A stretch of DNA of 64,000 bases from a virus: IMG/VR virus record IMGVR_UViG_3300018063_000012, positions 37,318 to 101,317 of that record; one strand, written 5' to 3'. Below the pieces are notes generated by a model. It saw nothing but the letters and a program-made list of their open reading frames with translations. It did no database searches and had not been told where the DNA came from. Positions 3 to 23,039 of the stretch are shown piece after piece (positions within the stretch are counted from its first letter, which is position 1; every line of letters begins with the position of its first letter). Both the position numbers and the translations under genes were made by a program.

Positions 3-311
3 TCCGGAGGTCCCTTGAATTGTGACTTACAACATTCAGTGAGAATTTTTACCGTAATGGGTTGTGGTGCAATGCTATTGACGGAACGTATTCCAAATAT
101 GGATGATTTGTTTATTGATGGGATCCATTTAGTGCAGTTCGATGGGGTGACTGATTTAGTGGATAAGTCTGTGTATTATTTACATAATACTGATGCACGA
201 GAAAAAATAGCAAAAGTAGGACAGAAGTTAGTATTGCAGAAACATACATTGAAGAATAGACTAATTGAATTTGAAAAAGTTATTAATGAGATAGTCTGTG
301 TTAAAGCTTAA
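3..311 (+). CDS. CgeB-like glycosyltransferase, C-terminal end (partial)
   Basis: This is the end of a gene whose start lies before the window; the frame is open from the first complete codon, so the TTG at 15 need not be a start. The visible 102 residues contain a VMGCGAMLLTERI segment, then a region around LFIDGIHLVQFD and DLVDKSVYYL, then a helical tail with a QKHTLKNR motif. That order matches the C-terminal sugar-nucleotide-binding lobe of CgeB/YkvP-type (Glyco_trans_1_2) GT-B glycosyltransferases. It heads a run of glycosyltransferase and methyltransferase genes and overlaps the next gene by 14 bases. Assignment is from motif memory. Confidence 0.6.
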   Translation, partial: SGGPLNCDLQHSVRIFTVMGCGAMLLTERIPNMDDLFIDGIHLVQFDGVTDLVDKSVYYLHNTDAREKIAKVGQKLVLQKHTLKNRLIEFEKVINEIVCVKA

Positions 312-774
312 TCTTGGATGCGGCAGTGAAGAGATATTATCCGGATACATCAATGTTGATATTCGACCAGTGCATACAGCAGTGAGAATAGATGATATTA
401 TTTATCTTTCAACCTTTGAATCTAATATAGTAGATGAAGTTCGGGCGAGCCATTGTATTGAGCATATTCCAGTTGAACATATTCAGACTGCAGTTAATAA
501 TTGGGCCCGAGTATTAAAACCAAGTGGGGTGCTATTTGTGTATTGCCCAGACGGCCATTTGATCGCCCAGGACTTAATAGACAGTAGAATTAATATTAGA
601 GATTTTTCTTACTATATTTTTGGTGCCCAGACATATAATGAAAATTTGCATAGGGCCGCATTTGATTATGAGCGGTTAGTAGATGTCGTCCAAAAAGCAG
701 GATTAACTGTAATTGGTCCCGCGAAACGTCCTAAATGTTATAGATATGAACTCGGGATTCACTGCATAAAATGA
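298..774 (+). CDS. class I SAM-dependent methyltransferase
   Basis: A 158-residue protein starting at GTG inside the end of the preceding gene. Residues 2-11 (LKLNLGCGSE) are the glycine-rich SAM-binding motif I; SGYINVDIRP follows as the acidic strand-2 motif, and HCIEHIPVEHI plus ARVLKPSGVLFVYCPDG are the motif IV and post-IV strands of Methyltransf_11-type enzymes. This compact form is common in phage and polysaccharide loci. The substrate is unknown; glycosyltransferase neighbours suggest a sugar or glycan. It overlaps the downstream glycosyltransferase by ATGA. Confidence 0.7.
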   Translation: MLKLNLGCGSEEILSGYINVDIRPVHTAVRIDDIIYLSTFESNIVDEVRASHCIEHIPVEHIQTAVNNWARVLKPSGVLFVYCPDGHLIAQDLIDSRINIRDFSYYIFGAQTYNENLHRAAFDYERLVDVVQKAGLTVIGPAKRPKCYRYELGIHCIK

Positions 775-1781
775 AAGTTGGAATTGTTGGCTACGCCAAT
801 ACCAGCGGACTGGGACAGCTGATTTTTAATTTGAAAGAAATGATATCAGAAATTGCCGGGCAGTTTATTGTAAGTCATAAAGTGAAAGATAGAGAAGTGA
901 ATTACTATCCAGCCGAATATGATTATAGGTCCCCATATTCCTGTGCATTTCATTCGGATGACTTTATGACTTGGTTTAATTCATTTAAACCCGGTGTAAT
1001 AATTTTACTCGAGACCCCTTTTAATTGGGAGATTATTCCAATATTAAAAAAAGAAGGGTGTAAGATAGTATTTATGCCGATGCTTGATTCTGTACCTCTG
1101 TCGAGAATTACTCATAGTAGTTTAATCGATTGCTGGATTGTGTGTAATCAATGGTCTAAGGATTTACTTAATAATTTAGAAAATGTTTTTTTAGTGGGAG
1201 CACCAATTAATACTAAAAAGTTTTACTATAAAACTCGAGGACTTGGCAGTGGATTATTATTACATCATGCCGGATATGCGGGTACGCGCGGGCGTAAGGG
1301 AACACAGGAGATACTGACGGCATTTGAATATATGAAGAAAATGCCAGAATATAAAGACGTTCGATTAAAGTTGTATTCCCAAACACCATTGAAGATTGAT
1401 AATAAAGATATAGACTATCATATCGGAGACGAACCGAATCAAATAACAATGTTTGAAGAAGGAGATGTATTTTTAGCGCCATCAAAAAGAGAAGGGGTAG
1501 GAATGCATATTTTAGAAGCGATGGCATCTGGATTTCCAGTTTTAACGACTAATTATCCACCAATGAATGAGTATGTAAATTGTCCGAGACTGTTAGTTAA
1601 TGCAAATATTACGATTAATAATATGAGTATAGATATTGCAGAATTATCAACTAAGATGGGGTCCGCCGCACTATCATCTTTGTCTCTAATTGGAGAATAT
1701 AATCGAAAGAGGATTGAAAAGTTTTGGTCTTATGATGCTGTGAGACCTGTGTATAAAATGATACTGGAGAGCTTAGTTTAA
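771..1781 (+). CDS. GT-B glycosyltransferase (family 4/1-like)
   Basis: A 336-residue protein. The N-terminus MKVGIVGYANTSGLG is the first beta strand and glycine loop of a GT-B fold. The C-terminal donor-binding lobe has GDVFLAPSKREGVGMHILEAMA, close to the E-x7-E signature of GT4 enzymes, followed by SGFPVLTTNYPP. A GRKGTQEIL segment near residue 176 resembles the phosphate-binding loop. It should transfer a sugar from a nucleotide donor. The acceptor is unknown: virion protein, modified DNA base and host glycan are all possible. It overlaps the methyltransferase before it by four bases. Confidence 0.7.
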   Translation: MKVGIVGYANTSGLGQLIFNLKEMISEIAGQFIVSHKVKDREVNYYPAEYDYRSPYSCAFHSDDFMTWFNSFKPGVIILLETPFNWEIIPILKKEGCKIVFMPMLDSVPLSRITHSSLIDCWIVCNQWSKDLLNNLENVFLVGAPINTKKFYYKTRGLGSGLLLHHAGYAGTRGRKGTQEILTAFEYMKKMPEYKDVRLKLYSQTPLKIDNKDIDYHIGDEPNQITMFEEGDVFLAPSKREGVGMHILEAMASGFPVLTTNYPPMNEYVNCPRLLVNANITINNMSIDIAELSTKMGSAALSSLSLIGEYNRKRIEKFWSYDAVRPVYKMILESLV

Positions 1782-1785
1782 TAAG

Positions 1786-2406
1786 ATGAAATTTGAAAAG
1801 TTGATATTACCATTTGCACCTGATGTATATTGGACTCGGGGATACTCTCACGCTATATCGAAACTTTCCGATAAGATTTCCTGTAGTGATTCGCAAGCAG
1901 AGTTACTATACAATCTGGCGTTACAATTACCTTTTCGTTCAGTGATAGTCGCACTGGGTATATGGACTGGAAAGTCGACTATTGCAATGGGAGAAGCTGC
2001 CAAAGAAAAAAGCCATCGCATATATGCAGTTGACCATTTTATGGGGAGTCCCTCTGATGAGACTAAAGACTTGTCCCAACAGAGAGATATTGCTTCCGAA
2101 TTTCAGGCCAATGTTGATAAATTTGGACTAGGACATTGGATTAGTACTATTCATTTTCCCTTTAATGAACTACTCTCTTGTTGGACAATTCCGATTGATT
2201 TAATTTTTATCGATGGAGACCACGAGTATGCCAGTGTAAATAATGATATAAATGGATGGGCGGGATGGGTTAAAGTAGGCGGGATAATAGCGGGACACGA
2301 CTACGATATTCCGGGAGTAGAGCAAGCAGTTAAAGAAAGTTTCTCAGAGTTTACGGTAGAAGATAATATCTGGATTGCTAAACGAGTGTATGACCAAAAG
2401 GTATGA
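1786..2406 (+). CDS. class I methyltransferase (Methyltransf_24-like)
   Basis: 206 residues. VIVALGIWTGKSTIAMGEAA is a motif I region that keeps the strand-loop-helix pattern although the canonical ExG is replaced by ALG. IYAVDHFMGSP is the strand-2 acidic motif, and DLIFIDGDHEYASVNNDI followed by VKVGGIIAGHDY is the hallmark of Methyltransf_24 (cephalosporin hydroxylase/O-methyltransferase-like) proteins, with the ID-GDH metal or SAM-loop acidic residues present. Probably methylates a sugar or small hydroxylated substrate. Spaced 4 bases from the glycosyltransferase upstream and overlapping the next gene. Confidence 0.65.
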   Translation: MKFEKLILPFAPDVYWTRGYSHAISKLSDKISCSDSQAELLYNLALQLPFRSVIVALGIWTGKSTIAMGEAAKEKSHRIYAVDHFMGSPSDETKDLSQQRDIASEFQANVDKFGLGHWISTIHFPFNELLSCWTIPIDLIFIDGDHEYASVNNDINGWAGWVKVGGIIAGHDYDIPGVEQAVKESFSEFTVEDNIWIAKRVYDQKV

Positions 2407-3113
2407 TGTATAATTTTTCAGTAGTGATTCCAACATATAATAGACCACACACTTTACTTCGAGCGATAGGTTCGGTATTATCCTGCGATAAACCACCAGA
2501 CTCCGAGATTGAAGTGATTGTAGTTAATGATGGCGGAAACTGGGTAGATATCGGAGGTATGACTAAAGGAAATGTAACTATTATTAATTCCCTTTCTAAT
2601 ATTGGAATATCAGCCGCACGGAATGTTGGGGTGCAAGAAGCTAAACATTCGTGGATTTGTGTATTGGACGATGATGACTGGTATCAACCAAACTATTTTA
2701 AGTTGTTAAAGAAAGCAATTATCGAACAAAGTGATAAAGAATTTTTCTATACAGCCTTCTGGGACTGGAACTGCGGAGATGAGATATACTGTTATTTTAG
2801 ACAAGCACAGTCCTTTCAGCCAGAGAAATTATCAAGAGCGATATATCGAAAGGATTTTATAGGCGCATCAACGATGAGTTTTACTAAACATGCGTGGCAG
2901 AGCGTAGGCGGATTTGATGCGGACTTACGATGCAACGAAGATTGGGACTATAAGATTAAAATGTGTAAGATGTTCGGGGCTGGAATTGTAGAGACAGCAG
3001 TAGTGAATATTACTACTCATGAAAATGGGATATATAAACAGTGTGTGAAGTCTGGTCTGGCAAAGCAGACAGAGCGCATTGTGAAAGAAAGATATAAGGA
3101 ATTGGCAGAATGA
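2403..3113 (+). CDS. GT2-family glycosyltransferase
   Basis: 236 residues. SVVIPTYNRPHTLLRAI is the classic GT2 (GT-A fold) N-terminus, EVIVVNDGG the nucleotide-contacting aspartate region, NIGISAARNVGV the donor loop, and WICVLDDDDW the DXD metal-binding motif. CNEDWDYKIK near residue 180 fits the ED catalytic-base motif. ATG codons at 2403 and 2406 are both usable. It overlaps the gene before it and is followed by a second GT2 gene with an ATGA overlap. Confidence 0.8.
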   Translation: MMYNFSVVIPTYNRPHTLLRAIGSVLSCDKPPDSEIEVIVVNDGGNWVDIGGMTKGNVTIINSLSNIGISAARNVGVQEAKHSWICVLDDDDWYQPNYFKLLKKAIIEQSDKEFFYTAFWDWNCGDEIYCYFRQAQSFQPEKLSRAIYRKDFIGASTMSFTKHAWQSVGGFDADLRCNEDWDYKIKMCKMFGAGIVETAVVNITTHENGIYKQCVKSGLAKQTERIVKERYKELAE

Positions 3114-3859
3114 CTACGATTATAATATGTGTATTCGGTAGGTCAGAACTAACTCGAAAGTCCCTGCAATCACTGATTGATAATACCGATGGATCCAGAT
3201 ATCGTCTGATTATAGTAGATAATGGTTCTGGTCCTCAGACACAACAAGTTTTACGAGACTTTCAAAACCGTATCAATTTATTGATCCTGTCCAGCCAGAA
3301 TCACGGGAAACCATATGCGTGGAATCTGGGATTCCAAGCGGCAGAGACTAATTGTATTTTTCATTCAATATCGCCATCCGAGATTTATGTGTTTGCAGAT
3401 AACGATGTCGACTACAAAAAAGATTGGCTAAATAAGATGGAGAGAGTATATGAAAGACTAAGACAGAGGAAAGAAAAAATTGGGATAATGTCAGGATTCG
3501 CATCACGGGGTGCCAAGATATTACGAGAAGAATTACTGCATTTTACTAAGGATGGACAGTCGTTGATTGATGATGCCAGCAATATACTGGCCCCAACGAC
3601 TGATAGGATAGAGACTATAAAAGTGCAAATGGTAAAGTATCCGGCCGGATGTAACTTTATGATTGGCCGAGACATACTACTAAATGAAGGACTGTTTAAT
3701 ACTGATAGACTAATTCGAGCCGTGGATACGGAGTATGCTAAATTCCTGACCTTGAAAGGGTATAGGCATTTTATAGTGCCAGGAATGGTTAATCATCTGG
3801 GAGAACATCAACGCACTTGGAAGATAGGTGCCCAGAATGAAGTGACTTTATATAACTGA
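3110..3859 (+). CDS. GT2-family glycosyltransferase
   Basis: 249 residues with the GT-A pattern: TTIIICVFGRSELTRKSL, YRLIIVDNGSGPQT, NHGKPYAWNLGFQAA, and YVFADNDVDYKKDWL as the DXD-type metal site. AGCNFMIGRDIL and AVDTEYAKFL match the acceptor-side region of glycosyltransferases that modify glycans or glycosylated DNA. It is the last gene of the tightly overlapping sugar cassette and is followed by a 52-base gap. Confidence 0.75.
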   Translation: MTTIIICVFGRSELTRKSLQSLIDNTDGSRYRLIIVDNGSGPQTQQVLRDFQNRINLLILSSQNHGKPYAWNLGFQAAETNCIFHSISPSEIYVFADNDVDYKKDWLNKMERVYERLRQRKEKIGIMSGFASRGAKILREELLHFTKDGQSLIDDASNILAPTTDRIETIKVQMVKYPAGCNFMIGRDILLNEGLFNTDRLIRAVDTEYAKFLTLKGYRHFIVPGMVNHLGEHQRTWKIGAQNEVTLYN

Positions 3860-4300: not shown

Positions 4301-5122
4301 ATGTTTAGAAAGTTAGCGAGAGTCATAGGACTATTTGCCTTGTTGTGCTTAGGGTGCGCGAATACATCCTGCGATACTTTTAAAGAACGGATAACGATGA
4401 AAAATCCGGATATTAAAAAAGTATACGTTGTTCACATCACGGGTAGAATATCAACAGAATGGATTCGTAGAGCAGACAGTGCTTTACGAATAGCTAATGG
4501 GGATCCCGTAATTTTCCATATTAACTCGCCGGGCGGCGGAGCATCAGAGAGCTTCCTGACAGAACACGGACTTTCACTGTTAAGGAAGAAGTATATGTCG
4601 CCAGTATATGTGTACTCAGATTACGGAATTTACTCCGGAGGATATCTAGCGGCACTTCCACTGGGCAAGATAGTTATCGCACCGGCCGGTGGGGTAGGAT
4701 CCATTGGTGTAATTAGTGAGGTTGATATAATCGTAAAGTCAGATTCTATGCGGGGAATTAAACGTATTCTATTTCGTTCAGGTAAGATGAAATGGGTAGA
4801 AGCTGGGTATTATGAATTGACACCCGAACAGACTAAGTACCTACAGAGTATCGTCGATAATGTGTACTCAATGTTTATAGATAGGATTATTGTGAATCGT
4901 CACGACGCTGTCTTTAGAGCAGTGGCTAACAGATTACATAAACAACCATCAATTGCACAAGTAGACTCTGTATTACGAGTTGTTTGTGATGGACGGGAAT
5001 ACGCACCAACCCAAGCACTTGCACTTGGACTAATAGACGGGGTTGCATATTTTGACGAGTTGTTAGAAGTAGTCAAGTATGAGAATATAATTCCGAGTGC
5101 AATGGTAGTCGATATTTATTAG
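4301..5122 (+). CDS. S49 (SppA-like) peptidase with lipoprotein signal
   Basis: 273 residues. The N-terminus is a signal sequence with a lipobox-like CLGC ending at Cys19, so the enzyme is predicted to be exported and perhaps lipid-anchored. The S49 fold is seen in INSPGGGASES near 74-84 (oxyanion turn), IYSGGYLAAL with the likely nucleophile Ser112, PAGGVGSIGV, and FRSGKMKW with candidate base Lys162 or Lys164, followed by LTPEQ as in SppA. Phage S49 or ClpP-type proteases are often prohead proteases, but the signal sequence and the 12 kb distance from the capsid gene argue for an envelope role. Confidence 0.75.
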   Translation: MFRKLARVIGLFALLCLGCANTSCDTFKERITMKNPDIKKVYVVHITGRISTEWIRRADSALRIANGDPVIFHINSPGGGASESFLTEHGLSLLRKKYMSPVYVYSDYGIYSGGYLAALPLGKIVIAPAGGVGSIGVISEVDIIVKSDSMRGIKRILFRSGKMKWVEAGYYELTPEQTKYLQSIVDNVYSMFIDRIIVNRHDAVFRAVANRLHKQPSIAQVDSVLRVVCDGREYAPTQALALGLIDGVAYFDELLEVVKYENIIPSAMVVDIY

Positions 5123-11839: not shown

Positions 11840-12079
11840 ATGGCTTGGAGTGAAGCGGCAAGAGCCGCATCGGCGGCAGTTAGACGACAACGTGGTAAGA
11901 AGATTACACCCATGCGACGGAAAGAGCCAGCATATGCTCGAGTAAGCAGGGTGCTGAGAAAGTTGCATCGGGAAAAAACGAAAGCGGACATCCCTTATCC
12001 CAATGCAAAAGAAACAAGTCGATTTAGAACTTTGCAAAAAAGGATTCGTAAAGTTAAGAGTTATACAGTCAAAAGGTAA
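11840..12079 (+). CDS. MAW-family small basic protein 1
   Basis: 79 residues, over a third Arg or Lys. Residues 1-20 match the family signature MAW(S/T)(D/E)xARxASA..RRQRGKK. The core is a basic helical segment, and unlike most members it ends in KSYTVKR, not RGGR. First unit of a tandem array and preceded by the only free-standing ribosome site of the group (GGGAGGGTGACTAA). Function unknown. The position between small genes and the lysis/head genes suggests a late, possibly virion-internal, DNA-binding protein. Confidence 0.7.
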   Translation: MAWSEAARAASAAVRRQRGKKITPMRRKEPAYARVSRVLRKLHREKTKADIPYPNAKETSRFRTLQKRIRKVKSYTVKR

Positions 12080-12081
12080 AG

Positions 12082-12132
12082 ATGGCTTGGTCAGATGCGG
12101 CACGAGCCGCCAGCGCTCAAGTTAGACGTCAG
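12082..12132 (+). repeat. 51-bp identical 5' end shared by two MAW-family genes
   Basis: The first 51 bases of members 2 (12082-12132) and 8 (13923-13973) are identical although the downstream cores are unrelated. Such identity could mediate homologous exchange or deletion between units, and suggests recent copying of the 5' end. Confidence 0.85.
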
Positions 12133-12315
12133 CGGGGTAAGAAGATTATACCAAAAAGACAAATAAAGAGATCGCTAACTAAAAGGTATACTCCAGTTCA
12201 ATTGGAACGCATTAAAGCTGGTCGCCCCCATAAGGGTCGTGAAGGTGGGCTAACAAGACGAGAACATAAAAAAGGTATTAATAGATATGTTCAAATTATG
12301 CGAGGACAAAGATAA
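12082..12315 (+). CDS. MAW-family small basic protein 2
   Basis: 77 residues. The first 51 bases are identical to those of member 8 at 13923, after which the two sequences differ completely. Core holds KRYTPVQLERIKAGRPHKG, resembling a fragment of a basic helical domain. It ends MRGQR, and those codons plus TAATG overlap the next start. Function unknown. Confidence 0.7.
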   Translation: MAWSDAARAASAQVRRQRGKKIIPKRQIKRSLTKRYTPVQLERIKAGRPHKGREGGLTRREHKKGINRYVQIMRGQR

Positions 12316-12605
12316 TGGCCTGGAGTGATGAAGCGAGAGCGGCGGCGTTAGCTAAAAGAAAGGCGAGTCCTAAAAATCGTCAGAGTAATAGGAAACGGGT
12401 GCTAAGTCCATATGGGAATATGAAACGTAAACAGACAGCAGGAATTCTATTCAAACGCAAACAAGCGTATCAAGTAGTGCAAGGGTTAAAGAAACAATTC
12501 ACTAAAGCTTTAAAGACGGGTAATGAAGCCCGCGTAAGGACATTACGTAAAAGATATCAACGAGTGAAAGATACTGGATTTTATATTAGTCGGGGAGGCA
12601 GATAA
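12315..12605 (+). CDS. MAW-family small basic protein 3
   Basis: 96 residues. Signature MAWSDEARAAALAKRKA; ends in RVKDTGFYISRGGR. Its codons for RGGR (CGGGGAGGCAGA) are the ribosome site for the next gene. The stub at 13595 shares this C-terminus, so a second copy of this type once existed. TAATG overlap with the gene upstream. Confidence 0.7.
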   Translation: MAWSDEARAAALAKRKASPKNRQSNRKRVLSPYGNMKRKQTAGILFKRKQAYQVVQGLKKQFTKALKTGNEARVRTLRKRYQRVKDTGFYISRGGR

Positions 12606-12947
12606 ATGGCTTGGTCAGATGCCGCAAGAGAGGCTTCAGCAAGAGCACGTAAAGGGGGATTTGGTAGATTACGTGCGGCAGTAGATAAAAGACGTAAACA
12701 ACAATTAGAAGGGAGTAGTGTACTATCCTTAAAAAATATTAATCAACTTAAACGGATTCGTAATCGTCAAGCTCGTCGAATTGAATCTAAAGTTAAAAGT
12801 TTACGAGCTAAAGCTACTGGCACATATGCCGGACACCCATCAGATAGACGAGCGCATAGAGCAAACTTAAGACTTCGTAAATTACAAAGCTCTAAATCAG
12901 GAAGTATGGCTGGAGTTAATTGGCATATAAATAGAGGTGGACGGTAA
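12606..12947 (+). CDS. MAW-family small basic protein 4
   Basis: 113 residues, the longest of the array. Signature MAWSDAAREASARARKG, then a strongly basic coiled region (NQLKRIRNRQARRIESKVKS) and the tail WHINRGGR. Its stop overlaps the next ATG as TAATG, and AGAGGTGG in its last codons acts as that gene's ribosome site. Confidence 0.7.
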   Translation: MAWSDAAREASARARKGGFGRLRAAVDKRRKQQLEGSSVLSLKNINQLKRIRNRQARRIESKVKSLRAKATGTYAGHPSDRRAHRANLRLRKLQSSKSGSMAGVNWHINRGGR

Positions 12948-13270
12948 TGGCTTGGACAGACGAAGCCCGTAGAGCATCTGCTTTAGCAAGAATTAATCGC
13001 GGACCTAAACGTGCTAAATATGAACGTGTTATCCGTAAAGTTGATAGGGCGATTAAGAATGACCGTCAAACTATTAATAATATGCAAAAAGTTATTGCTG
13101 GAATGCGGAAGGTTAGACCGGCGATAAGGGAAGTTCAGAAAGCACAGAAACAGTTAGGTAAATATTCTAAACGGTTCCAAATAAATAAAAAGAGGGCATT
13201 GAGAGTGAGACTACGATATCCCGGTTTTTCAGGTTATAAAGGAATTGATATAGCTAAAGGAGGCAGATAA
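12947..13270 (+). CDS. MAW-family small basic protein 5
   Basis: 107 residues. Signature MAWTDEARRASALARINRG; basic helical core (ERVIRKVDRAIKNDRQTINN) and tail IDIAKGGR, whose codons contain AAAGGAGG, a perfect Shine-Dalgarno for the broken copy that follows. Function unknown. Confidence 0.7.
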   Translation: MAWTDEARRASALARINRGPKRAKYERVIRKVDRAIKNDRQTINNMQKVIAGMRKVRPAIREVQKAQKQLGKYSKRFQINKKRALRVRLRYPGFSGYKGIDIAKGGR

Positions 13271-13591
13271 ATGGCTTGGTCAGATGCGGCACGAGAGGCC
13301 TCAGCAAGAGCACGTAGAGGAAACAGACGGATTAACCCTACTGTAGCAGTAAGTAGAAGTAAAGGGATTTCGTAAGCTTCCGAAGGACAAAGAGAGGTAA
13401 CTATAACTGGACGCCGTTCCTGGAAGGCAAAGATATACCATCCGGGGAAGGGGTCACTGAAAAGACTTAGAAAACTTATTAGAGCAAGTAAAAAGAGTGG
13501 AAATGTCAAAAATGAGACACGGAGACCGCTGCGATACACAAAAGGAGCTACTAAATTACATACATTTTTTCTAATTAAAGGTGGTCGTTAA
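13271..13591 (+). pseudogene. MAW-family copy 6 broken by an in-frame TAA
   Basis: Starts MAWSDAAREASARARRG under a perfect AAAGGAGG site, but reads TAA after 34 codons (13373-13375). Downstream, the same frame stays open for 71 codons, is equally basic, and ends LIKGGR, the family tail. Total length of 106 codons without the stop fits the family, so this is a single nonsense change rather than two genes. A 34-residue product may still be made. Readthrough is possible but TAA is the ordinary stop throughout the window. Confidence 0.7.
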
Positions 13592-13594
13592 AAA

Positions 13595-13651
13595 GTGGTA
13601 TCAGAAAGAGTAAAAGATACCGAACATTATATTATTAGAGGTGGACGATAA
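13595..13651 (+). pseudogene. C-terminal stub of a MAW-family gene
   Basis: In frame with the broken copy before it, an 18-codon stub reads SERVKDTEHYIIRGGR and matches the end of member 3 (RVKDTGFYISRGGR). The signature half is missing, so it is the remainder of a deleted copy. It keeps AGAGGTGG just before the next ATG, which would explain why the stub survived. Confidence 0.6.
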
Positions 13652-13923
13652 TGGCTTGGGGACCTGAGGCAAGAGCGGCTAGTGCTTTGGCTAGACGAAC
13701 GAGCAGAGGATTTGCAAAATTAAATAGACAGAAACGTTTAACTCTTAAACATGCATCCAAATTGACAATGTTACATAAGAAGCTTTCTGGCATAGGTAAT
13801 GTAATAGGTAAAAATCATCCTATGTATAAGATCGCCCAAAAACGGTCAGCAAGAGTGTTTCGTAAATTACAATCACTGAAAAGTAAACGTCCAGAATATT
13901 TTGTGAGTAGAGGTGGACGGTAA
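13651..13923 (+). CDS. MAW-family small basic protein 7
   Basis: 90 residues. Signature varies to MAWGPEARAASALARR. Basic helical core and tail YFVSRGGR; the tail codons (AGAGGTGGACGG) precede the next TAATG. Function unknown. Confidence 0.7.
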   Translation: MAWGPEARAASALARRTSRGFAKLNRQKRLTLKHASKLTMLHKKLSGIGNVIGKNHPMYKIAQKRSARVFRKLQSLKSKRPEYFVSRGGR

Positions 13924-14255
13924 TGGCTTGGTCAGATGCGGCACGAGCCGCCAGCGCTCAAGTTAGACGTCAGAGAGGTAAGACTCTAACTGGATCTAAA
14001 TTAACACCGGCAGGTGCTAAACCATTACAGAAACAGTTAGCGCGACTACGCGTCACAAGACAATCCCAGCGGAGAAACGCATTAGCAGATTTTAGGCTTA
14101 AACATGTCACCAAAACTTCACCCGGAATGCGAAAAATATCATTTGCTGAACGCAGGAAATTTTTGAGAGGATATAGAGGGACTAAAGAGAAAATAAGTAA
14201 AACATTGAAACGATTGAGATTCGTTAGAAATGCATCTAAGAGAGGGGGCAGATAG
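13923..14255 (+). CDS. MAW-family small basic protein 8
   Basis: 110 residues. First 17 codons identical in DNA to member 2. Core contains PLQKQLARLRVTRQSQRRNA and a PGMRKISFAERRKFLRGY segment; tail NASKRGGR, encoded by AGAGGGGGC that serves as ribosome site of the next gene. Last unit of the main array. Confidence 0.7.
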   Translation: MAWSDAARAASAQVRRQRGKTLTGSKLTPAGAKPLQKQLARLRVTRQSQRRNALADFRLKHVTKTSPGMRKISFAERRKFLRGYRGTKEKISKTLKRLRFVRNASKRGGR

Positions 14256-14937: not shown

Positions 14938-15219
14938 ATGGAACTGATGAACAATGTAATAAAGGCCAAAGAATCCTTTAAACGACTGGAGTTACATAAA
15001 TCTATCAGAGAAAACTACAAGAGTAGGAAGTTTATTTCCTTCTGCGTAGTCTGGTCCTTCGGAAGCTTGATGTTTTATATGAAAGCGATGACCGCCGCTG
15101 AATGGATCGGATTCTCCGAATGGCTATTAGGTATATTTTTCTTTTTCAATATCGCCGACAAATCGGGGTTACTGGGGATGATTAAGAAACAGGATAGCGA
15201 TACTGAGAGATTGAAATGA
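14938..15219 (+). CDS. putative holin, two membrane segments
   Basis: 93 residues, with hydrophobic stretches near 32-50 (ISFCVVWSFGSLMFYM) and 57-72 (EWLLGIFFFFNIADKS) and charged ends. Size, topology and position just upstream of the endolysin support a class II-like holin. It starts directly after the previous stop and its TGA overlaps the ATG of an HNH gene that separates it from the endolysin. Confidence 0.6.
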   Translation: MELMNNVIKAKESFKRLELHKSIRENYKSRKFISFCVVWSFGSLMFYMKAMTAAEWIGFSEWLLGIFFFFNIADKSGLLGMIKKQDSDTERLK

Positions 15220-15677
15220 AGTCTATAATTCAGATAGAAAAAGATAGGGAGTATCAACGACTTTATAAAATAAAGAAGTCTATAATTCAGATAGAAAAAG
15301 ATAGGGAGTATCAACGACTTTATAAAATAAAGAATAGAGATAAGATTAATAGTCAAGTCCAAGCGTGGGTTAAAAATCATCCTGACTATTATCCCGAATA
15401 TAGGTGTCAGTATAAGTACCAAATATCATTTAAAGATAAACAAGATATGCTGATTAACCAGAATTCTGAATGTGCTATCTGTAGACAATTACTACAGATA
15501 GATAAAGCGTTTATTGACCATGACCACAAATCAAGTAAGATACGAGGATTACTGTGTTATAATTGTAATATGGGGATAGGTCATTTACATGATTCTATAG
15601 TTGTTCTTGAACAAGCTATTGAATATCTAAAAATATATGCTACGGATACTTCTACAACGACTAAAGATAAAAGGTAA
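15216..15677 (+). CDS. HNH/endonuclease VII-type homing endonuclease with duplicated N-terminus
   Basis: 153 residues. The core CAICRQLLQIDKAFIDHDHKS then RGLLCYNCNMGIG is the zinc-linked beta-beta-alpha site of recombination endonuclease VII-like enzymes: IDHDH gives the catalytic His, with CxxC pairs around it. The first 38 residues after Met are two exact copies of a 19-residue unit beginning KSIIQIEKD, from a perfect 57-bp tandem duplication. It is wedged between holin and endolysin and overlaps both. Confidence 0.8.
   Translation: MKSIIQIEKDREYQRLYKIKKSIIQIEKDREYQRLYKIKNRDKINSQVQAWVKNHPDYYPEYRCQYKYQISFKDKQDMLINQNSECAICRQLLQIDKAFIDHDHKSSKIRGLLCYNCNMGIGHLHDSIVVLEQAIEYLKIYATDTSTTTKDKR
15219..15332 (+). 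repeat. 57-bp perfect tandem duplication in the HNH gene
   Basis: 15219-15275 is repeated without change at 15276-15332, keeping frame (19 codons per unit). No differences between copies, so the event is recent or the copies are kept alike by recombination. Confidence 0.95.
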
Positions 15678-16427: not shown

Positions 16428-17252
16428 ATGTCACAGACAAAAACTGAAGACGAATTGAAGAAAGAGGCGGAGGAAAAAGCACAGGAAGAGGCGAAGGCTA
16501 AAGCCGAGGCTGAAAAGAAAGCTAAGGATGAGGCAGACGCGAAGGCTAAAGCAGAGGCAGAGGAAAAAGCTAAAGCAGAAGCCGAGGTTAAGAAACAGCT
16601 TGATGATTTAGTTAAGCGTGGAATTTTGAAGAAAGAGGGCGGGGTATTAGTTGAGGCGAAGTTTGACCCAACTTTGACACCAGCCTACAAAGAGTTAAAC
16701 ACAACGGTAGTTCAGAAAATAAGCGCCGCAACAGATAGAGTTGCACAACTCGAGAAAGAGTTGGAAAAGACTTCAAATGTCCTTAAATCAAAAGAGGATA
16801 TGGAAGCGGCAGACAAACAGCGGATGACCGAGGAGTTGAGTAAATTGAAAAGTGACTTGACGATTGAAAATCAAAAGGCTCGCGAAGCCGGGATTCAATT
16901 GCTGAAGACGCAAACTGCGGTAAAAAAGGGATTGCCCTTTAACTTCTTGGCGTATGTAACTGGAGAGACGGCCGAGGCGATTGAGGCCTCAGTTGAGAAA
17001 GTAATGGGAGATTTCGCTCTTCAAGCGAATAAATTTACTAAAGAACAGTTACAAGCCGCAGAGGCCGCGGCCGCAGAGAAGGCAAGCAAGGAGACCGAGG
17101 AGAAACTAAAACCTCGGGGTAAATCAACCCAGAATGCCGCTGAACCGGGACATATCTTTACTCGCGAAGAGATTAGAAGAATGACCTCGGCTGAATTTGC
17201 TGCAAACCGAGTCGATATCCTGCGCCAACAGAGCGAAGGATTAATAAAATAA
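16428..17252 (+). CDS. prohead scaffolding protein (coiled coil)
   Basis: 274 residues. Residues 5-62 are a low-complexity Ala-Glu-Lys helix (KAKAEAEEKAKAEAEVKKQL), followed by more coiled coil (ATDRVAQLEKELEKTSNVL) and a C-terminal basic/acidic tail. Such highly charged helical proteins directly upstream of the capsid gene are scaffolds that shape the prohead and then leave. Strong GAGGAGG ribosome site. Confidence 0.7.
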   Translation: MSQTKTEDELKKEAEEKAQEEAKAKAEAEKKAKDEADAKAKAEAEEKAKAEAEVKKQLDDLVKRGILKKEGGVLVEAKFDPTLTPAYKELNTTVVQKISAATDRVAQLEKELEKTSNVLKSKEDMEAADKQRMTEELSKLKSDLTIENQKAREAGIQLLKTQTAVKKGLPFNFLAYVTGETAEAIEASVEKVMGDFALQANKFTKEQLQAAEAAAAEKASKETEEKLKPRGKSTQNAAEPGHIFTREEIRRMTSAEFAANRVDILRQQSEGLIK

Positions 17253-17267
17253 ACGGAGGATTAGACT

Positions 17268-18560
17268 ATGCCCAGTTCATTAGGTAGTCAGAATTTAGCA
17301 CCCAACATTGCGGAAGCTTTTGGTAAACTTGTACCAGAAGTGTTTTCGCAGGAAATCGAGTTGAAGACTCGGGAATTGGGGTTTACCCGATTTCGGGATT
17401 TTGTAGTTTTGAAAGAGGATCTGCAGAAAGATCCAGGGAATTCTCTTCACATTCCTAAAGTAGCTGAATTGCGTGGTGCGCAGAGCCTCGGTCAGACTAA
17501 AATTCTGGCTGGGTCCGGTCAAGCTATTAACACTGGCTTTTTGACCCTGACTCCGACTGAATTTGGTGATGAGATTCAAATCACCCAGTATGCTGGCCTT
17601 GTATCGCCATCTGATTTGGTAGATATGGCACGTGAACTGTTAGCCCGTCAGGCTCTGAAGTCTGAAAATTTTACAGTTCGTGACGTTATGTTCGGAGCTT
17701 CCGCTAACCGGCGTTTCGCTGGTGGTGTGGCCGCGAAGACTGACGTTACCGCAGATTTAGACAAGGATGATATCGACGCTGTAGTCGAGAACCTTGAGAA
17801 CAACGAGTCTTTGAAATGGGCAGGAGAAACCTTTATGGGTTTCATCCATCCGTTTGCGAAAACGGTCATTTTGAATGATGTTGTGAGCGCCGCTGTGTAT
17901 CAGGCCGCAGTCGGTGGACAGCTGTATGCTGGTGAGATTGGTATGGTAAATAGATGCCGGTTTATCGAATCTTCCTACGTTCCTCAGGATGCATATTCTG
18001 CGGCTGGGTTGGCTTCGGCCGGTTCCTCCGGTATTACGATCGCTGATGCCAATGGTTATACTTTGGCTCCGAATCTGTGTCGAGCGGAGACGATTACCTT
18101 TACGTATACTGCTTCTGGAGATTCTTGGGCCGTGTCCGGTTCCAAATCCGGAGCGCGTAAAGCCGCTCTTTTTACTTCGACTGATAACCCGAACGATGCT
18201 ACGAAGAGTCCTGTGGTGGCGAAAGCCGCGTCATATACTGACGGTAACGCAACGACTTATAAAGTGGCGTTGGCTGTGGAAGATGAAGATGGGAATACGA
18301 TCGGCTACGATGTTGTACTGAACGCTGGCGCTATGACTGGCGCGGCCTCTGATGACACCGCTACATTGCTGATTGTGGTTCATACCTTGACTTCTATTTT
18401 CGGTCAGAGACATCTGGCCTTCGGTGTGATTAAGCCAGTTACCTTCTTGGGTGCTGAGGCATTTGACTATGGACGTATCGTGGGCATAGCTTGGAACGCG
18501 TTTTGGGCATGCGACTTTCTTCATAAATCATATGGATATGTCATGCAGGCTCTAAGGTAA
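17268..18560 (+). CDS. major capsid protein, N4-gp56 family
   Basis: 430 residues. Segments such as GQTKILAGSGQAINTG, TPTEFGDEIQITQYAGLVSP, GEIGMVNRCRFIESS and GQRHLAFGVIKPVTFLGAE...DYGRIVGIAWNAFWA are typical of N4-gp56 capsid proteins (HK97 fold). Residues about 255-370 form a Thr/Ser/Gly-rich insert (TASGDSWAVSGSKSGARKA) that looks like an added surface domain. Codons favour GCT, GGT and CGT, in keeping with high expression. Followed by a strong hairpin. Confidence 0.85.
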   Translation: MPSSLGSQNLAPNIAEAFGKLVPEVFSQEIELKTRELGFTRFRDFVVLKEDLQKDPGNSLHIPKVAELRGAQSLGQTKILAGSGQAINTGFLTLTPTEFGDEIQITQYAGLVSPSDLVDMARELLARQALKSENFTVRDVMFGASANRRFAGGVAAKTDVTADLDKDDIDAVVENLENNESLKWAGETFMGFIHPFAKTVILNDVVSAAVYQAAVGGQLYAGEIGMVNRCRFIESSYVPQDAYSAAGLASAGSSGITIADANGYTLAPNLCRAETITFTYTASGDSWAVSGSKSGARKAALFTSTDNPNDATKSPVVAKAASYTDGNATTYKVALAVEDEDGNTIGYDVVLNAGAMTGAASDDTATLLIVVHTLTSIFGQRHLAFGVIKPVTFLGAEAFDYGRIVGIAWNAFWACDFLHKSYGYVMQALR

Positions 18561-19368: not shown

Positions 19369-19796
19369 TGGGAATACAGTATTTATCGGAAAAACAAATA
19401 CGGCAGATGAAGATAGACTTTGAAAAGTCTGTTTTGATTGCCGGTTTTGATATTACATATAAGAAGTTCGAGAACTTAAATGAATCGGATCCTCTATATG
19501 ATGGAGAACGTAAAAAGAAGGATTTAATATATCGGAATGTCAAGATTAAAGCCCTTGTGAATCTGAACCCTCGGGCGTGGGTGACAGATGACTTGGGTAA
19601 TAGGAAAGATATAGATGCACAATTTACTATAGCTGCAAAGTCATTTGAGGATTTGCAGTTGGACGCGGTGGATGCAAGAGATAGGGTTGAGTTTGGAGAC
19701 GAGGAGTATATTATAATACAGATAAGAAAAGGTCCGCTTCCGATGGGAGAGGTATTATCATATATGTTATCCTGTAAAACAATGGTGGGAATCTAA
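19368..19796 (+). CDS. head-tail connector/neck protein
   Basis: 142 residues with mixed beta structure (DLIYRNVKIKALVNLNP, RVEFGDEEYIIIQIRKGPL). Length and position, one gene before an HK97-gp10-like protein, fit a neck or connector. TAATG overlaps link it to both neighbours. Confidence 0.5.
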   Translation: MGIQYLSEKQIRQMKIDFEKSVLIAGFDITYKKFENLNESDPLYDGERKKKDLIYRNVKIKALVNLNPRAWVTDDLGNRKDIDAQFTIAAKSFEDLQLDAVDARDRVEFGDEEYIIIQIRKGPLPMGEVLSYMLSCKTMVGI

Positions 19797-20296
19797 TGAT
19801 TAAAGTCACCATAGAAAAAAATGACCTTGATAAACTTAAATCATTATTTTCTGCATTAGGGGAGAATGCTCCAAGAGCCGCCGATGGACTTATGCAGACT
19901 ATAGCATCAGATTTGAAGTTCGCCTTTAAACAGAATCTATGGGAACGTAAACTAAAATTGGAACCACTTAAACCATCATACTTACAGAGTAAAGTTGCAA
20001 TGGGTAGGTTTCCACAAATATTGATTAGCACAAGTCAAATGGTAGCGTCGGTAGAATCTCGAAAATTAGAGAACTTTGTATACTTTATTGGAGTACCATC
20101 AGGGAAGGTGCATAAAAAGACAGGTATTAAATTGAGTGATTTGGCGATGATACATGAGTTCGGTTCAATTGCAAGAGGTATACCACCACGTCCAGCTTGG
20201 ACATTGACAGCAGTGCGATTTGAGAAACAGGTGCCAAAGATAATTGATAAGTTCCTAACTAAGTTCGCTAAAGATTTACTAGCAGGTAAAGTATAA
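19796..20296 (+). CDS. gp10-like / virion morphogenesis (tail completion) protein
   Basis: 166 residues. The MIHEFGSIARGIPPRPAW segment near 121-138 is the trademark of HK97-gp10/Mu gpG-like proteins that join heads and tails (HExG..IPxRP). Preceded by an amphipathic helix (KLKSLFSALGENAPRAADGL). Its TAA overlaps the ATG of a MAW-family gene. Confidence 0.75.
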   Translation: MIKVTIEKNDLDKLKSLFSALGENAPRAADGLMQTIASDLKFAFKQNLWERKLKLEPLKPSYLQSKVAMGRFPQILISTSQMVASVESRKLENFVYFIGVPSGKVHKKTGIKLSDLAMIHEFGSIARGIPPRPAWTLTAVRFEKQVPKIIDKFLTKFAKDLLAGKV

Positions 20297-20619
20297 TGGC
20301 TTGGACAGAGGCCGCAAGAGCCGCGAGTGCATTAGTTAGACGACAGCGTGGTAAGAAGATTACTCCAATAGGAGATAAGAAATTTGCCGGACTTAAACTA
20401 AAAGCAACTGGAAAATCACTAACGAAAAGAGTACCGTTCGGTATTAATAGAGCGGGGAAGACTGTATATACAAGAGTGCCGATAAAACCAAACCTGAAGT
20501 ATAAGAATAGGAAATCTAATCAACAGAAACCCTTTGTTCCAAGTGGTAGATTTTATAACGTGGTAGGACGCCACGGCTGGAAGAAGAGGATTAAAAATAC
20601 AATAAAGTTGGGCGGATAA
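20296..20619 (+). CDS. MAW-family small basic protein 9, in the tail module
   Basis: 107 residues. Signature MAWTEAARAASALVRRQRGKK, near-identical over 20 residues to array member 1, followed by a different basic, Pro/Asn-containing core and the tail KLGG. It stands alone 6 kb from the array, between the gp10-like protein and the tail terminator candidate, so the family is tied to virion assembly regions. Confidence 0.7.
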   Translation: MAWTEAARAASALVRRQRGKKITPIGDKKFAGLKLKATGKSLTKRVPFGINRAGKTVYTRVPIKPNLKYKNRKSNQQKPFVPSGRFYNVVGRHGWKKRIKNTIKLGG

Positions 20620-21530: not shown

Positions 21531-23039
21531 ATGACAATTGGGATTAACATAACAGAGTTGGTGTCGCAAGGTTCACCGGTCTTAGAAGGTGATAACGAAC
21601 TGACTCCGGGATTCTTGGTAGTGTCTAAACGAGGCCCGGCTGACTTTCCAATACTGATTACCAGTATGAATCAATTCAAAAGACTATTCGGTGAGCATAC
21701 TACTGCCGGATACGGAGCTTATGTTTTGGAAGGTTATTTTTTGAACGGCGGAAGAAAAGCTTTTGTGAGTCGTATAGTTGGCTCCGGTGCCGCGGCTTCC
21801 GCGGTTACATTGGTCGATAGAGCCAGTACGCCATTGGACACATTGACGATTGAAGCTGGATATAAAGGACGACTTGACAAAGGAACTTGGGGGGATAATC
21901 TATCGGTAGCTATTACTGATAACGTAGACGATACCACTCTGTTTGACTTAGAAGTACTTCTCTCCGGTGTGACTAAAGAAGTATGGCGAGGAGTGACTCC
22001 TGCGACAGCTGTCACAGCAATAAATGACTCTGTATCAGGTTCCGAATATATCAAAGCGACTAACGAGAACTCTACTTCAACAGCACCGGATAATAATCCA
22101 GCAGTCGGAAGTTCAAACTTAAGTGCCGGTGTCGCAGGTTCCGCCCCGGCCGTTACAGCATATAATGGAGTGCAGGCTGACTTTACAGGGGTGTATGCTT
22201 TCGATGCACTTGATATTAGTCATCTGGCTAATGCGGAGTCGACTGATGCAACGCATTTAGATAATCTGCGAGATTATTGTTCAGCGAGAGGAACCATTCT
22301 TGGAGTGGCCTCTATTCCAGTTGCATCAACTGTGTCTTCCGCTAAGACATTCGGACAGGCATTGCAAATTTCAAATGCTTATATGGCACTGTATGGCGGA
22401 TGGGTTTTGGTGAGTGACCCAATTGGTTCGGGTCCTAATCCACTTAAATGGGTGTCCCCGGTTGGACATGTCCTTGGAGTATATGCCAGAACATTGCGTG
22501 ACCGTGGAGTGCATAAAGCCCCGGCTGGTGTAACAGACGGCCAGCTAAAAGGAGTTTTTGATATTGATATGGATGTGAATAATGATACAGACTTGACAGA
22601 CTTAGCCACTAATGGTGTGAATACGCTTAAGGCAGTGCCAGGTTATGGTAATTGCGTTCTGGTGTCCAGAACTCTCTCCAAAGATGTTCGGTGGAGATTC
22701 GTGAACGTTCGGAACTTGTTTAACTATGTAAAACGGGCGCTGAAGAATGGATTGGCTTTCGTTCAGCAAGAACCGAATGATGGGGTGCTAAGGGCGAAGG
22801 TTAAGAATAACACTGTCCTTCCTTTTATGCGCACTTTGTTTCAGGCAGGAGCTTTTGGGTCCGGTAAATTTGAGGACTTGGTAAGTATCATTTGTGATGA
22901 ATCTAATAACCCGCCAAACGAGATTGAGTTGGGAAATTTCCATCTGGATATGACTTTCTTCCCAAGCAAACCAGCGGAGAGTATTTTCATCTCTGTAGCC
23001 CAGCAACAGACAGGTAGTTCAGCCGCGTCCGAGACTTAA
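21531..23039 (+). CDS. contractile tail sheath protein
   Basis: 502 residues. Begins ITELVSQGSPVLEG with FLVVSKRGPADFPILITSMNQF near 30-50 and YGAYVLEGYFLNGGRKAFVSR; these and the C-terminal WRFVNVRNLFNYVKRALKNGL with AVFxEPND-like VQQEPND match sheath proteins of phages and contractile injection systems. The C-terminal part inserts into neighbouring subunits and drives contraction. Confidence 0.9.
   Translation: MTIGINITELVSQGSPVLEGDNELTPGFLVVSKRGPADFPILITSMNQFKRLFGEHTTAGYGAYVLEGYFLNGGRKAFVSRIVGSGAAASAVTLVDRASTPLDTLTIEAGYKGRLDKGTWGDNLSVAITDNVDDTTLFDLEVLLSGVTKEVWRGVTPATAVTAINDSVSGSEYIKATNENSTSTAPDNNPAVGSSNLSAGVAGSAPAVTAYNGVQADFTGVYAFDALDISHLANAESTDATHLDNLRDYCSARGTILGVASIPVASTVSSAKTFGQALQISNAYMALYGGWVLVSDPIGSGPNPLKWVSPVGHVLGVYARTLRDRGVHKAPAGVTDGQLKGVFDIDMDVNNDTDLTDLATNGVNTLKAVPGYGNCVLVSRTLSKDVRWRFVNVRNLFNYVKRALKNGLAFVQQEPNDGVLRAKVKNNTVLPFMRTLFQAGAFGSGKFEDLVSIICDESNNPPNEIELGNFHLDMTFFPSKPAESIFISVAQQQTGSSAASET

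Follow-up and report, generated by a model that had tools for sequence, protein, structure and literature searches.

A short N-terminal tag shared by otherwise unrelated basic proteins of uncultured phages, a probable signal for packing cargo into the virus head

Uncultured phages encode small basic proteins which share a 16-residue N-terminal segment, MAW(S/T)(D/E)(A/E)ARxA(S/A)AxARR, followed by cores of many unrelated types. This tag is found in about 35 uncultured phage contigs, with up to seven copies in each and about 90 distinct proteins, and is probably an address label by which proteins are packed into the virus head and delivered to the host. Our preferred reading, to which we give a probability of roughly 0.6, is that of a capsid-targeting tag with swappable injected effectors, resembling the internal proteins of phage T4 in function while the tag itself is unrelated to theirs. 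In this scheme we infer the head location, the injection, the effector role and the binding partner.

The window analysed here is a stretch of 64,000 nucleotides, bases 37318–101317 of a virus record of 101,317 bases (G000). The complete record carries 11 tagged genes, 10 intact and one broken. Eight intact ORFs of 77–113 aa, all starting with MAW, lie in the window (Table 1), and two others, both starting with MTW, are located outside it at G000:15674 and G000:27491. The ORFs bear out the arrangement described in an earlier note on this DNA: a head-to-tail array (11840–14255) of at least seven intact genes, for which we count seven, together with a copy interrupted by an in-frame stop, the tail remnant of another and a further copy at 20296. 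The DNA pattern specifying the tag has eight matches in the window compared with 0.00 in dinucleotide shuffles.

Table 1. Tagged genes and head and tail genes of the window (window coordinates)
Feature	Position	Strand	Properties
Tagged gene 1	11840..12079	+	79 aa, pI 11.8
Tagged gene 2	12082..12315	+	77 aa
Tagged gene 3	12315..12605	+	96 aa, C-terminus SRGGR
Tagged gene 4	12606..12947	+	113 aa, C-terminus NRGGR
Tagged gene 5	12947..13270	+	107 aa, C-terminus KGGR
Broken tagged gene	13271..13591	+	single in-frame TAA at codon 35 (13373-13375); rest open to KGGR end at 13591
Stub	13592..13651	+	C-terminal tail alone of another copy (..HYIIRGGR, stop); KVVSERVKDTEHYIIRGGR
Tagged gene 6	13651..13923	+	90 aa
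Tagged gene 7	13923..14255	+	110 aa, C-terminus RGGR
Head scaffolding protein	16428..17252	+	phrog_233, E 6.5e-7
Major head protein	17268..18560	+	phrog_1357, E 1.1e-14
Neck1/tail completion protein	19796..20296	+	5′ of solitary tagged gene
Solitary tagged gene	20296..20619	+	107 aa, immediately 3′ of Neck1-like gene
Tail sheath (contractile-tailed phage)	21531..23039	+	phrog_23, E 1e-45

Pairwise comparison separates the tags clearly from the cores. Tag z-scores range from 5 to 18 in all pairs. The claim that the middles of these proteins show no alignment holds for 42 of the 45 core pairs and has to be softened for the remaining three (12606–13651, 11840–12315 and 11840–12606), which align weakly (z>3) in a Lys/Arg-rich C-terminal stretch. 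The cores do not come together as one ordinary fold in the wider collection either, where 93 distinct tagged proteins fall into 83 core groups (BLAST, E<0.01; a few marginal or partial). None of the window cores has a convincing family in Pfam, PHROGs or NCBIfam.

The array genes share a second feature which the earlier note had overlooked. Of the seven intact genes five, and likewise the broken copy and the stub, have a C-terminal (R/K)GGR. The codons of this motif make up the Shine–Dalgarno-like sequence of the gene that follows and its TAATG or TAAATG junction, so that this second constant end may serve to couple translation instead of acting as a protein motif. Similarity in the tag region can also extend to the DNA. 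Over 61 nt the tags of 12082 and 13923 have 97% identity while their cores are unrelated, the tag DNA of 12947 is common to both remote copies (G000:15674 and 27491) and the tag of the broken gene at 13271 appears to combine the 12082 and 12606 types as a mosaic. Because near-identical or mosaic tag DNA sits on unrelated cores, the tag may be a recombination joint, with recombination as the possible origin of the mosaics.

Long DNA-identical stretches of this type and the conserved junctions could indicate that what the 5′ ends share is a feature of the nucleic acid, such as a translation-initiation region, a recombination site or a homing target, of which the peptide is a by-product. This explanation is largely refuted and we consider it highly improbable, since the amino acids are kept while the codons vary freely across copies and phages. 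Among 78 proteins from contigs whose GC content ranges from 41 to 69%, each of the four Ala codons is found at A7 and A10 and each of the six Arg codons at R8 and R15; several codons are also used for each fixed Ala and Arg of the tag within this phage. A translation-level cause of the shared 5′ ends was rejected on the same grounds. No model of the NUMOD-type DNA-binding motif of homing endonucleases matched at the thresholds used.

At the protein level, the near-fixed positions outside the search constraint are A10 (97%), A/S11 (100%) and R15 (99%); the DNA pattern itself required A10 in the copies it retrieved, though not in the other copies on the same contigs. W3, A7 and R8 belonged to the search pattern and their invariance is partly due to selection; they are likewise present in the window copies, which had been found on first reading of the DNA. 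Conservation along the tag has a helix-like period (p 0.03). In a structure model of the 13651 protein (pLDDT 80), the Arg-rich tag forms the start of a helix (residues 5–52) that runs on without a break and is followed by a second helix (57–78). The earlier note had considered that the tag might belong to a known catalytic domain, and none was recognised in Pfam, PHROGs or NCBIfam. Four words spelling the tag were absent from the open-access literature searched.

The tag recurs widely among uncultured phages. Scored with a profile of the tag, most copies in 34 records reach E-values of 1e-8 to 1e-12, and 11 copies lie in this phage; the tag is borne by unrelated basic cargos, almost always at the very N-terminus. 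A degenerate DNA pattern matched 55 stretches of viral contigs and a corrected, broader pattern 64, both partly by chance; arrays found with the broader pattern include 4–7 matches in one stretch. A misregistered control pattern, in which the second Arg is placed one codon early, matched 33 stretches with one match each, as against up to seven per stretch in the correct register. The single match in cellular genomes (L062) was to the misregistered pattern and hence provides no measure of the absence of the tag from cells. One pattern match, in L033, was judged by eye to be the C-terminus of a portal-like protein and was excluded. Variant tags also occur: at least seven tagged genes surround TerL in L106:1045-4795 with the form MAW(S/G)(A/Q/V)KARxA(A/S), and several tagged ORFs in L038:8381-9750 begin with MW, the second residue being missing.

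Searches for related loci by whole-protein alignment of the tagged proteins gave no match because the tag alone is shared. A tblastn search of 50,697 phage records with five tagged or cargo sequences identified no tagged cultured phage, short tags being poorly seen by tblastn. Among isolated relatives defined by portal or MuF (Nanhaivirus R5C, R26L and Pan1, Caulobacter phage DMCA and Vibrio phage KF6), no tagged ORF was present in the regions examined.

The tagged genes occupy the late strand, where they are scattered among the genes for terminase, portal, MuF, scaffold, capsid and neck proteins. The array of this phage lies upstream of the scaffold and capsid genes and one of the copies outside the window is upstream of the terminase and portal genes. 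From ORF lists partly named by eye, the gene order is TerS-[three tags]-TerL-portal-x-tag-MuF-scaffold-MCP in L031 and TerS-TerL-tag-x-portal-tag(ParB-like)-tag(ART-like)-MuF-scaffold-MCP in L027. PHROG profiles confirm the MuF of L027 and a TerL adjoining the tags in L049, L022 and L106, and L057 includes a tagged gene 3′ of the Neck1 gene, the same position as that of 20296 in the window. MuF (PF04233) is found in 12 of the 34 records, at a median distance of 0.9 kb from the tags. It occurs in six of the seven records of at least 30 kb compared with a published 35% of tailed phages (p 0.009), the published figure having been obtained with a wider set of MuF profiles (PMC5576092).

This neighbourhood bears on a second alternative, in which the tag acts inside the infected cell as a localisation or DNA-binding motif (at the host nucleoid, a replication site, the ribosome or a membrane site) and the proteins are late host-takeover or moron products that stay outside the virion. 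We judge it quite improbable. The tag does contain an Arg-rich helix, the tagged proteins are known from genomes of uncultured phages alone, and many small orphan phage genes are non-structural. However, the tagged genes stand in between those for head and neck proteins and the compared tags are on the MuF strand in all 12 records with MuF, relatives of the cargos are fused to a portal, and late products would be short of time to act in the producer cell.

The cores are extremely basic, 99% of them having a pI above 9 as against 34% of other phage ORFs of similar size (median pI 11.7 versus 7.7, p 3e-25). Three cargo types are found elsewhere within virion or polyvalent proteins. The first, in L015 and L031, has a GVEVKT motif which by eye is like that of PD-(D/E)XK nucleases and shares 37–44% identity with the domain at the C-terminus of a portal in L064 (phrog_146, E 2.3e-54). 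The second, in L011 and L027, is ParB-like (PHROG 1033, best E 3e-5, two members matching) and has 20 untagged relatives, most of which are domains of longer proteins. The third, which is the neighbouring cargo in L011 and L027 and also occurs in others, includes a YHGT-type segment and is a probable ADP-ribosyltransferase, an assignment made weakly from a Pfam match of one member (E 0.004) and from gene position; a structure model of the group had a pLDDT of 44 and gave no Foldseek match. In L137 an untagged relative of the ParB-like cargo carries an ART-PolyVal domain (E 5.9e-16) on the same polypeptide, and in the tagged phages L011 and L027 tag-ParB and tag-ART-like proteins are the products of neighbouring genes. 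According to published work, domain types of this kind belong to the head or are counted with the proteins that are injected (PMC5512222).

A simpler role for such basic proteins would be that of protamine- or H1-like DNA-condensing or counter-ion proteins, tag and cores alike binding the packaged DNA with no effector function in the host. The basicity of nearly all cores is consistent with this, as are the H1-like, Lys/Arg-rich cargos of L020 and L060 and the helical hairpin modelled for the window protein. The ParB-, nuclease- and ART-like cargos, in contrast, are folded enzyme-like domains related to portal and polyvalent domains, and 83 core groups represent more diversity than the neutralisation of DNA needs; we therefore regard this role as unlikely, while leaving it a real chance.

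Two further sequence features were noted. Directly after the MuF gene of this phage, outside the window, is an untagged, very basic gene of 79 aa (L006:13894-14133, that is G000:33894-34133) with the motif GARFRTLEASAAKGGASNPAAVAATAGRMKYGREGMARLS, and a related segment is included in a 517-aa tagged protein of L104. In L064:1333-5549 the sequence GGPGSGRYP(A/K)GS precedes the portal-fused nuclease-like domain and is found twice in the following MuF-like protein; it is possibly another shared linker.

In T4, Ip1–3 are unrelated except for an N-terminal leader that directs packaging; after injection they inhibit different restriction enzymes (PMC12373910), and the first 10 residues of IPIII suffice for packaging (PMC9026906). 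As with IPI–IPIII and Alt, a short N-terminal segment is here common to small, basic, hypervariable and otherwise unrelated proteins of one phage, the genes form clusters in the late region and the cargos include a probable ADP-ribosyltransferase. At about 16 residues, however, the tag exceeds the T4 capsid targeting sequence in length; it is rich in Arg and Ala around its invariant W, and the tagged genes are dispersed between head, neck and terminase genes in several phage lineages. The T4 tag is cleaved, whereas the S77 prohead protease (PF03420) was found in none of 11 records here, in a search without positive control. A ClpP-type protease was likewise found in none of the 11 and an S78 protease in only one of 34 records; this phage encodes an S49 peptidase-like protein (window 4301-5122) with a lipoprotein-like N-terminus. 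Removal of the tag as in T4 is thus not indicated, and with no recognised prohead protease in most records the tag may stay on the protein. Family profiles in Pfam, PHROGs and NCBIfam gave no match of tag or cargo to the T4 internal-protein family. The array would be like the T4 internal proteins in function, which does not imply membership of that family. The analogy with T4, already drawn in the earlier note, is strengthened rather than proven by the recurrence of the tag on unrelated basic cargos, the position in the head module and the portal and polyvalent relatives of the cargos.

Two other systems share part of this organisation. Like the polyvalent proteins (Iyer et al. 2017, PMC5512222), which are predicted to be packaged and injected, the tagged proteins include ParB/Srx-like and ART domains. 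Polyvalent proteins, however, are very long polypeptides with at least two effector domains each, whereas the tagged proteins are separate, each with its own tag, and most are 50–230 aa with one core. Like MuF polymorphic toxins and portal-fused effectors (Jamet et al. 2017, PMC5576092), they combine a constant, probably capsid-associated N-terminus with a variable C-terminal cargo, their genes adjoin those of the portal and MuF and the nuclease-like cargo forms a portal C-terminus in L064. In contrast to those systems, the constant part is a 16-residue tag without a MuF or portal domain, MuF (PF04233) being the product of a separate neighbouring gene, and there are many copies per genome.

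Under the head-targeting reading, an amphipathic, Arg-bearing tag helix would recruit small basic cargos to the phage head during its assembly, through binding to a component of the head or to packaged DNA. The cargos would then travel in the virion and enter the host together with the genome, to act there as early effectors. Each gene would form a cassette in which a variable core stands between the constant tag and, in this phage, a constant RGGR end; this end would supply the ribosome-binding site of the next gene and shared tag DNA would allow recombination to exchange or duplicate cargos. Among the points against head targeting is that one and the same tag goes with scaffold and capsid proteins that apparently differ, which would be unexpected of a signal that binds the scaffold. 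Conservation of the tag among phages whose scaffolds apparently differ would favour DNA, MuF or the portal as its partner over a lineage-specific scaffold.

The tag could even represent a second, independently evolved capsid-targeting code, in which one short, uncleaved tag serves many effectors in unrelated uncultured phages and is moved by recombination, a proposal that we hold tentatively and at somewhat less than even odds. If true, it would be a modular alternative to the fusion of effectors with portal, MuF or polyvalent proteins, and metagenomes could be mined with it for phage effectors that are injected. Protein loading into the heads of phages other than T4 is poorly known. A tag recognisable in sequence would list injected effectors, including anti-defence proteins, directly from metagenomes and would provide a short, testable packaging signal outside T4.

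The surroundings of the array include some additional ORFs. The MuF gene is separated from the tag array by a cluster of glycosyltransferase-like and methyltransferase-like ORFs (window 298-3859 and L006:14938-16694). At the start of an HNH-like ORF (window 15216-15677) about 19 residues (KSIIQIEKDREYQRLYKIK) are duplicated in tandem almost exactly, and further HNH-like ORFs are found at L005:12082 and L005:14302 and beside the tag array of L020.
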